From Stappia sp. (GTDB lineage: Bacteria; Pseudomonadota; Alphaproteobacteria; Rhizobiales; Stappiaceae), in NCBI RefSeq assembly GCF_040110915.1, contig NZ_CP157793.1, positions 2,678,939 to 2,742,938 on the forward strand: a DNA stretch of 64,000 nucleotides. Direction: 5' to 3'. The position numbers were made by a program, and so were the translations under genes. The notes under the pieces are model-generated. The model made no database searches. It had not been told where the DNA came from and saw nothing but the letters and a program-made list of their open reading frames with translations. Positions 25,644-43,985 of the stretch are shown here, piece by piece (position 1 is the stretch's first letter; every line of letters starts with the position of its first letter).

Positions 25644-27191
25644 TCACACGGCCCTGAGTTCCTGGTGGTCCGGGCGGTTCTGGCGGGCGATCAGCTTGTT
25701 GAGCGCCGAGACATAGGCGCGGGCCGAGGCGACCAGCGTGTCGGTGTCCGCACCCTTGCCGGTGGAGATGCGTCCGTTGGCCTCCAGCCGCACGGAGACC
25801 TCGCCCTGCGCGTCCGTGCCCTCGGTCACGGCGTGCACCTGATAGAGCGACAGCGTCGCTTCATGCGGGACGATCGCCTTGATCGCGTTGAAGGTCGCGT
25901 CGACCGGGCCGTCGCCGGTGCTTTCCTTGGTGATGTGCTGGCCGTCGACATCCATGGTCAGGATCGCCTTCTGCGGGCCGCCCGTGCCGGCGATGACGGT
26001 GAGCGCGATCACCTTGATCTGCTCGCCCTGGGTCGCGATCTCGTTTTCGACCAGCGCCTCGATGTCCTCGTCGTAGACGTGCTTCTTGCGGTCGGCGAGA
26101 TCCTTGAAGCGGCGGAAGGCCTCCTCGAAGGCGTTGTCGCCGATCTCGTAGCCCAGTTCCTCCAGCTTCTGGCGGAAGGCATGGCGGCCGGAATGCTTGC
26201 CCATCACCAGCGAGGTGGCGCGCACGCCCACGTCCGCGGGCTTCATGATCTCGTAGGTCTCGGCGTTCTTCAGCATGCCGTCCTGGTGGATGCCGCTTTC
26301 ATGCGCGAAGGCGTTCTTGCCGACGATCGCCTTGTTGAACTGCACCGGAAAGCCGGAAACGGCCGACACCAGCTTGGACGCCCGCGTCAGATACTTCGGA
26401 TCGACGCTCGAATCATAGGGCATCACGTCGGCGCGGGTGCGGATCGCCATGACGATCTCTTCCAGCGCGGCATTGCCCGCACGCTCGCCCAGGCCGTTGA
26501 TCGTGCACTCGATCTGCCGCGCGCCACCGGCAACCCCGGCCAGCGAATTGGCGACCGCCAGGCCCAGATCGTCGTGACAATGGACGGAAAACACCGCCTT
26601 GTCCGCATCCGGCACCTGGGCGCGGATCGTCTCGAACATCGCCTTGTACTCGTCCGGCGTGGCATAGCCCACGGTGTCCGGCAGGTTGATCGTCGTCGCG
26701 CCGGCGCGGATCGCCGCCTCGACGCAGCGGCACAGATACTCGATGGGCGTGCGGGTCGCGTCCATCGCCGACCATTCCACGTCGTCGATCAGGTTGCGCG
26801 CCCGCGTCACCGTGTCGGTGATGATGTCGAGCACCTGCGCTTCCGTTTTCTTCATCTGGTGTTCCAGATGGATCGGCGAGGTCGAGACGAAGGTGTGAAT
26901 ACGGCCGCGTTCGGCGTGACGGACCGCTTCGCCGGCCCGGTCGATGTCGGCGTGAATGGCGCGCGCCAGGCCCGCGATCACCGAGCGCTTGGCCCGGCGG
27001 GCGATCTCGCTCACCGCCTCGAAGTCGCCGTTGGAGGCGATGGGAAAGCCCGCCTCGATGATGTCGACGCCCATGTCGTCGAGAATTTCGGCGACCTGCA
27101 GCTTCTCCTCCAGCGTCATGGAGGCGCCGGGCGACTGCTCGCCGTCGCGCAACGTGGTGTCGAAGATGAAGACGTGGTCCTTGCCAGCCAT
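25644..27191 (-). CDS. leuA: 2-isopropylmalate synthase
   Basis: A 515-residue enzyme that condenses acetyl-CoA with 2-oxoisovalerate, the first committed step of leucine synthesis. The TIM-barrel HMGL-like domain opens FDTTLRDGEQSPGASMTLEE and has the metal-binding HCHDDLGLAVAN and NGLGERAGNAALEEIVMA. The C-terminal regulatory LeuA domain (from about residue 370) binds leucine for feedback inhibition. The upstream leader (27246-27440) encodes a Leu-rich peptide and alternative hairpins, so transcription is probably attenuated by leucine. Confidence 0.97.
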   Translation of the reverse strand: MAGKDHVFIFDTTLRDGEQSPGASMTLEEKLQVAEILDDMGVDIIEAGFPIASNGDFEAVSEIARRAKRSVIAGLARAIHADIDRAGEAVRHAERGRIHTFVSTSPIHLEHQMKKTEAQVLDIITDTVTRARNLIDDVEWSAMDATRTPIEYLCRCVEAAIRAGATTINLPDTVGYATPDEYKAMFETIRAQVPDADKAVFSVHCHDDLGLAVANSLAGVAGGARQIECTINGLGERAGNAALEEIVMAIRTRADVMPYDSSVDPKYLTRASKLVSAVSGFPVQFNKAIVGKNAFAHESGIHQDGMLKNAETYEIMKPADVGVRATSLVMGKHSGRHAFRQKLEELGYEIGDNAFEEAFRRFKDLADRKKHVYDEDIEALVENEIATQGEQIKVIALTVIAGTGGPQKAILTMDVDGQHITKESTGDGPVDATFNAIKAIVPHEATLSLYQVHAVTEGTDAQGEVSVRLEANGRISTGKGADTDTLVASARAYVSALNKLIARQNRPDHQELRAV

Positions 27192-27245
27192 GTGTCGGTC
27201 CTCTCAAGCCGGGCCCGCGGACGGCGCCGCCCGGGCCCTAAAATC

Positions 27246-27345
27246 CTGCGCGCGGGAACGCGCGCTCCAAAAAACGAAGGGATTTCGAAGAAGGCTCCCC
27301 TGAGTGCCCGCTTCCGTCCAAGCGGAAGCAGCCGACGCTCAGGGG
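27246..27345 (-). promoter_or_regulatory. leuA attenuator (mutually exclusive hairpins)
   Basis: On the minus strand CCCCTGAG (27345-27338), containing the leader stop codon, can pair with CTCAGGGG (27304-27297). Between them is a GCTTCCG/CGGAAGC hairpin (27329-27310). The same 3' arm, as AGGGGA, can instead pair with TCCCTT, followed by CG and T6 (27274-27269): a weak terminator. A ribosome finishing the leader would cover CCCCTGAG and favour termination; one stalled at Leu codons would favour the antiterminator. A GC hairpin lies at 27265-27248. Confidence 0.6.
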
Positions 27346-27440
27346 CTGATAAGGAGAAGGAGGCCGCCAAGGCCAAGGGGTCCGCCGCGCGGAACGCGCG
27401 TGGAGATCGCGATATCGGCAGGGGTGCCAGCGGCGATCAT
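27339..27440 (-). CDS. leuL: leu leader peptide (33 aa, Leu-rich)
   Basis: A short reading frame ATG 27440 to TGA 27339, ending PLGLGGLLLLISP with four consecutive leucine codons (CTC CTT CTC CTT) and two more shortly before. It is 147 nt upstream of leuA, and its stop codon lies in the 5' arm of the predicted antiterminator. This is the layout of leucine attenuation leaders. No strong Shine-Dalgarno is visible (GAGG about 14 nt upstream). The Leu run and hairpin logic make it convincing. Confidence 0.72.
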   Translation of the reverse strand: MIAAGTPADIAISTRVPRGGPLGLGGLLLLISP

Positions 27441-27514: not shown

Positions 27515-27523
27515 CTGTCTCTT

Positions 27524-27558
27524 TCAGGCTGAGCGCCCGTCGTTCTCAGGCTGAGCGC
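27524..27558. repeat. 13-bp direct repeat at 22-bp spacing upstream of the leu leader
   Basis: TCAGGCTGAGCGC occurs at 27524-27536 and 27546-27558, two helical turns apart, and the second copy runs into a GAGCGC-AA-GCGCTC palindrome. The phasing suggests cooperative protein binding on one DNA face, but a local duplication is also possible. Confidence 0.35.
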
Positions 27559-27679
27559 AAGCGCTCAACAATCGGTTAACGCCTCGAATGGGTACCCGAT
27601 CGGCGGCGGCGACGCAAGAGGCCGACCGGCGCCCGAGGGATTGCGCGGACGGCGACCCTCGCCGCCGTCCGCGTCGCGA

Positions 27680-43468: not shown

Positions 43469-43835
43469 CGCTTCTGTCCTTTCGACTGCGACGCTCGATG
43501 CCCCGGTTTTACGCCGCGCGCGCGCCGATGCCCAATGACACCGGCTCACAAGACCGCGAGAGGTGTGTGCGCGCAAAGATCCGCACGGTGTTTGCAAAGC
43601 CGGAATGAATGCCTATATTCCGTCTGTCGGTTTCGGCCGACTATGACGATAAACGGTTTGCGTAATAAGCCTATCGGACCCGGGGGCGGTACCCGGCGCC
43701 TCCACCCAAGCCCGTCGCGACATCCGGCCAGAAGCCGTGTGAGCGGCGGGTTTCGGCGGGGGCGAAACAGGATCGACGAGGGTGTAAAGGCATTTCTTTC
43801 GTCCGGCATGGTTCCGCCGTTATCGGGCCGTCTCA

Positions 43836-43856
43836 ATAGTTGCAAACGACAACTAT
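43836..43856. promoter_or_regulatory. ATAGTTG-N7-CAACTAT dyad
   Basis: A perfect inverted repeat, AT-rich, with a 7-nt spacer, in the 755-bp gap. It has the size and spacing of a MarR- or LysR-type operator, but no regulated gene starts nearby. Confidence 0.4.
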
Positions 43857-43887
43857 GCTATGGACAACGCCGTCGCCGCGTAATGCG

Positions 43888-43985
43888 GTGCCGGTAGTCC
43901 ACCAAAGTCCCGTCGGTTAGCCCCGACAGGCGGGGTCCGGAGGCACCTGGCAACAGAAGCCTCCACTTCTGCCGTCTTGCGCTTG
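43888..43985 (+). ncRNA. Candidate structured RNA (unassigned)
   Basis: GGTGCC can pair with GGCACC about 60 nt later, enclosing TCCC/GGGG and GTCGG/CCGAC to give a rod-like fold. Next to it, GGAGGC/GCCTCC and CAGAAG/CTTCTG form mutually exclusive hairpins. It lies in a gene-free 755-bp gap. No Rfam family is recognised. Based only on hand pairing, so weak. Confidence 0.2.

Follow-up and report, generated by a model that had tools for sequence, protein, structure and literature searches.

The window, a stretch of 64,000 nucleotides from the genome of a Stappia species (4.67 Mb, a single contig), carries leuA, the gene for 2-isopropylmalate synthase, with ilvN and ilvB upstream of it on the same strand. 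Among 80 related genome contigs, the best named match to this LeuA is from Stappia sediminis (90% identity). Between ilvN and leuA lies a short open reading frame (ORF) for a peptide of 33 amino acids, MIAAGTPADIAISTRVPRGGPLGLGGLLLLISP, that ends in a run of four leucines and a few further residues (Table 1). The initial annotation of this DNA had described the ORF as a leader peptide before leuA, with four consecutive leucine codons and with its stop codon embedded in a pairing arm. That description of the sequence is correct: ORF and coordinates were found again on the minus strand, and CCCCTGAG, which holds the stop codon, is fully complementary to CTCAGGGG. The gap between ilvN and the leader contains two close copies of one short sequence, TTTCAGGCTGAGCGC and TCTCAGGCTGAGCGC (27520-27560), and, elsewhere in the window, a permuted tmRNA gene of alphaproteobacterial type occupies 43587-43967.

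Table 1. Features of the leuA leader region, in positions of the window
Feature	Position	Strand	Remarks
leuA, 2-isopropylmalate synthase	25644..27191	minus	start at 27191; regulated gene in the proposal
Leader ORF	27339..27440	minus	33 codons and TGA; ATG at 27440, TGA ending at 27339; C-terminus LLLLISP
Leu codons CTC CTT CTC CTT	27351..27362	minus	putative sensor codons and proposed anti-Shine-Dalgarno sequence
Hairpin 5' arm, CCCCTGAG	27338..27345	minus	holds Pro codon and stop
Hairpin 3' arm, CTCAGGGG	27297..27304	minus	full hairpin 27297-27345
Base stem, leader side, UCCUU-A-UCA	27347..27355	minus	minimum-energy fold; partner 27199-27206
Base stem, leuA Shine-Dalgarno side, UGAGAGGA	27199..27206	minus	minimum-energy fold
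TCCCTT and T6	27269..27282	minus	3' part of the terminator proposed initially; judged not conserved

DNA upstream of leuA was taken from 110 loci, mostly of Hyphomicrobiales, and a leader with a leucine run, together with the hairpin, recurs in 107 of them, which is far beyond chance. The alignment of leuA leaders from relatives, suggested as a check when the leader was first noticed, finds both the run and the hairpin arms kept. Within the genus, where 13 other members were compared, all encode MIAAG...LLLL[I/T][S/C]P-stop and keep the start MIAAGT; the ending LLLL..P-stop is conserved across the order. The run ends, in the same 107 of 110 loci and with few single-position exceptions, in the pattern CTN CTN CTT ANN NNC CCC TGA/TAG. 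Proline precedes the stop in 107 of 107 of these Hyphomicrobiales leaders, and the stop is UGA in 105 of 107, features that are partly built in because the search pattern demanded CCN ahead of a stop.

The last leucine codon (Leu -3) is CTT in 106 of 107 relatives; CTT makes up 4% of the leucine codons in the window's leuA, ilvN and ilvB. The base that follows it is A in 105 of 107, independent of the amino acid encoded: when the next residue is arginine its codon is the rare AGA (22 of 24), and when it is serine the codon is AGC or AGT (28 of 28). Since CTT-A is kept whatever amino acid comes next, the constraint acts on the RNA, and not on the peptide alone. The strictness of CUU-A (27350-27353, and its counterparts in relatives) is explained by pairing to the Shine-Dalgarno (SD) sequence of leuA, described below, in some families only. 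A programmed +1 slip at this site was considered and rejected: in just 15 of 71 cases does the +1 frame continue without a stop beyond the start of leuA, and there is therefore no conserved slip product. Outside the order, a subgroup of about 30 loci (L157-L210) has the motif CTKCGACTTA, in which an arginine codon, CGA, stands between two leucine codons and is conserved despite not coding for leucine. An arginine CGA before CUU would fit a pause at this point, but the subgroup has fewer leucine codons.

The hairpin that contains the leader stop is strong. It spans 49 nt, with a stem of 8 bp, and has a folding energy of -31.5 kcal/mol (z -4.1 versus shuffles). Across 73 distinct sequences, 99.7% of the cells of the stem are paired, with two-sided changes at two of the pairs. 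The base after the stop codon pairs as GC, GU, UG, AU, CG or UA, and a change of the stop from UGA to UAG is matched by a change in the opposite arm. Most measures of this co-variation lie above those of all shuffles, and slid controls are lower. The nested hairpin accounts for the conserved columns; between it and the SD sequence, a search for a pairing partner of the 3' arm, or for a further motif, found only SD words, GC-rich words and U runs.

An almost invariant Pro-UGA, even if CCN-stop was demanded by the search pattern in the Hyphomicrobiales, is also what one would expect of a nascent peptide that arrests at its terminal Pro-stop, in the manner of TnaC, and itself senses leucine or another effector. 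Other relatives make this highly improbable. In the stem of Rhodobacterales-like genomes CCUC pairs with GAGG or GGGG, and leucine is the last residue before the stop; in more distant relatives the position of the stop is taken by UAG, UAA or even UGG, which is no stop; the stem is still paired in all of these. These variants contradict a Pro-stop arrest, and the constraint follows the pairing of the RNA.

How would such a leader affect leuA? The initial annotation envisaged ribosome-controlled attenuation with an intrinsic terminator as output, in which the 3' arm of the hairpin pairs instead with TCCCTT just before a T run. As classical transcription attenuation, this would have the ribosome cover the stop codon when leucine is in excess, so that the freed CTCAGGGG pairs with TCCCTT and transcription ends at T6. 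The required sequences are present, and in the right order: TCCCTT occupies 27282-27277 and T6 27274-27269, with two bases between them, and AGGGGA and TCCCTT are able to pair. The resulting hairpin, however, is weak (-6.2 kcal/mol, z +0.36; 127 of 200 shuffles are at least as good), and TCCCTT and the T run are missing in most members of the genus. Nor does the 3' arm co-vary with the next 40 nt, own versus permuted (z +0.60, n=71; z +0.25, n=82; z +0.85, n=29), and a scan for consensus terminators found none on the leader strand. An intrinsic terminator made from the 3' arm therefore fails as a general feature on energy, on conservation, and on permutation in three sets, and transcription attenuation of this kind is an unlikely account of the element. 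T5 runs do occur after the hairpin in 8 of 74 sequences, against 0.5 expected from mononucleotide shuffles, and several Stappiaceae have a U run there; because of this excess, termination in single species is possible. What stands of the attenuator first proposed is the leucine leader through which a translating ribosome would control leuA, strongly supported by its conservation, and not its terminator.

Termination could also depend on Rho, which would load on the untranslated stretch before leuA once the ribosome is released at the leader stop, and would be blocked by a stalled ribosome or by the hairpin. Intrinsic terminators are mostly lacking, as this would lead one to expect, and the first 40-45 nt past the hairpin show some enrichment in C (C 0.31-0.34, G 0.26), but the excess is small and Rho leaves unexplained the co-variation of the leucine run with the leuA SD sequence, to which we now turn. 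We regard it as less likely still than an intrinsic terminator.

A run of leucines encoded by CTY is complementary to SD sequences, which by itself proves nothing. Each run was therefore compared in its coupling to its own SD sequence and to permuted ones. In a first set of 71 loci, own pairs of leucine run and SD had energies of -8.31 kcal/mol versus -7.39 for permuted pairs (z -4.5; 0/5000). Controls with the SD or the run reversed, with three other stretches, or with leuA codons 2-8, gave z values from -0.9 to +0.4, and two other leader segments reached about -2.4 to -2.6. The starts of leuA were picked by rule, and are wrong in a few cases; loci so affected were excluded from this first test. 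A second set of 82 loci outside the first gave z -6.35 (controls -2.6 to +2.5), and the CTKCGACTTA subgroup (the LRL group, 29 loci) gave z -2.9. When all were pooled and the codon after the run was included, z was -8.7 for energy and 8.9 for uninterrupted Watson-Crick length; reversed SD sequences gave about 1, and the stretch just upstream of the SD reached z -3.6, so part of the pooled value may stem from kinship, some effects of which the permutation tests, being without a tree, leave in. In about one-third of the sequences the complementarity amounts to just 3-4 consecutive Watson-Crick bases. Rhodobacterales-like genomes provide the clearest cases, in which leader and SD change together: UCCUUAGC faces GCUAAGGA in L259 and L262, UCCUAAUC faces GAUUAGGA in L168, and UCUUAGCC faces GGCUAAGA in L261. 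Here the invariant CUU-A would have a function as well, but this does not hold for all families.

Predicted folds lead in the same direction. In the window, the minimum-energy fold is a base stem, formed by the leucine run and the SD region, around the intact hairpin, and most members of the genus examined fold alike. Partition-function folds of 149 leaders place the SD core in pairs with the leucine run with a mean probability of 0.34, versus 0.16 (p 1e-9) when synonymous leucine codons, drawn from an assumed high-GC usage, are substituted; in the window alone synonymous codons pair the SD equally well (0.65 vs 0.67). Masking the leucine run, in imitation of a stalled ribosome, raises the predicted probability that the SD is unpaired from 0.35 to 0.56 (mean of the 149 leaders), and from 0.18 to 0.54 in the window alone.

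A covariance model built from the leucine run and the hairpin, with a cut-off of E 0.01 or better, matches 167 of the 199 genomes scanned within the order and 75 of the 289 within the class, and nearly all of the matches examined directly precede leuA. A scan of the phylum (299 genomes) yielded 41 firm matches, all alphaproteobacterial, and one borderline match outside that class (E 0.009). No family in Rfam, Pfam or NCBIfam covers the element, and the gathering score of Rfam Leu_leader is not reached. A search for a second copy in the host genome returned matches of E 0.006 and 0.9, the first of which (L112) has neither leuA nor a plausible leader. In four genomes (L133, L135, L136 and L139) the element lies ahead of another type of LeuA, dissimilar in sequence (e.g. 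the alternative 2-isopropylmalate synthase of L133, which starts MTYAGKVSQFSAPKVDIAAKYKPWPPIDLPDRQ), and it is therefore tied to the pathway rather than to one gene lineage. It looks, in these four loci, as though a replacement leuA had acquired the element. In two Rhodobacterales-like genomes (L168 and L177) a cupin-like gene directly follows the leader, and the leucine run is complementary to the SD sequence of that gene; in L168, leuA comes after it. This cupin-like gene may belong to leucine metabolism. Our literature search found no account of an alphaproteobacterial leuA element; Vitreschak et al. 2004 lay outside its scope, and we do not claim priority. That paper reportedly treats the ilvBN attenuators of Alphaproteobacteria, and it is the likeliest place for a mention of leuA leaders of the class.

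The co-varying complementarity of the leucine run to the leuA SD sequence points to translational attenuation. As the simplest reading, we think it probable that, in this element, a ribosome on the leader attenuates the translation of leuA in response to leucine. In RNA that is free, or transcribed in leucine-replete cells, the leucine run and the codon after it would pair with the SD sequence around the stop-codon hairpin, whose strength would serve to bring the two strands together; leuA would then be poorly translated, its SD region being paired to the run. A shortage of charged tRNA-Leu would stall the translating ribosome on the leucine codons of the leader, where it would cover the anti-Shine-Dalgarno sequence and so open the ribosome-binding site of leuA. 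An advancing ribosome should meet the hairpin while the invariant CUU is being decoded, because the base of the hairpin lies five bases after CUU.

With somewhat less assurance, we also favour a broader reading: that this is a class-wide RNA element of Alphaproteobacteria, absent from Rfam, in which one stretch of 12-16 nt is both leucine sensor and mask of the leuA ribosome-binding site, around a stop-codon hairpin. It would identify the probable control of leucine synthesis in a large and well-studied class of bacteria, and would give genome annotation a uniform element, leader and RNA together, that has so far gone unannotated. It would also offer a clean case in which synonymous changes can tell the coding constraint on a set of codons from the base-pairing constraint on them.

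One of the known systems nearest to it is the leu attenuator of Escherichia coli and Salmonella (leuL; Rfam Leu_leader), where the leader upstream of leuA monitors charged tRNA-Leu through its leucine codons and an intrinsic terminator is the output. The alphaproteobacterial element shares with leuL the leucine codons in the leader, and so has what is expected of a classical attenuator at this point, a short ORF ahead of the biosynthetic gene that contains a series of regulatory codons. Unlike leuL, it lacks a conserved terminator, the mutually exclusive antiterminator and terminator with U tract being absent as a conserved feature, and it has no Rfam match. The ilvBN attenuators described in Alphaproteobacteria (Caulobacter) as transcriptional (PMC4117421) share with it the class and a leader peptide for branched-chain amino acids, but belong to another operon and use Ile/Val codons. 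In translational attenuators of the ermC type, a ribosome stalled in the leader exposes the SD sequence of the next gene (PMC10219788). The element resembles these by prediction, since its SD sequence is predicted to be masked by default and to open when the leader is masked; it differs in that the ermC signal is an antibiotic, whereas here it would be uncharged tRNA-Leu, with the sensor codons themselves the masking strand.

The element also resembles the LEU element of Actinobacteria, which lies upstream of leuA, and in which a base stem of leucine codons and leuA SD sequence encloses a pseudoknot (Seliverstov et al. 2005, PMC1262725). The authors of that study lean towards a protein-binding site, and the mechanism is unsettled (PMC1262725). 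Both elements have a leader with a leucine run before leuA and no obvious terminator, and in both the run pairs, here by co-variation and predicted fold, with the SD box of leuA as a base stem. In the alphaproteobacterial element the predicted stem encloses a plain hairpin whose 5' arm holds the stop codon of the leader, where the LEU element as described has its pseudoknot. If our reading is true, leucine codons have this double role in two distant lineages, whether the two came to it separately or have it in common, and the alphaproteobacterial element bears on how its actinobacterial counterpart works.
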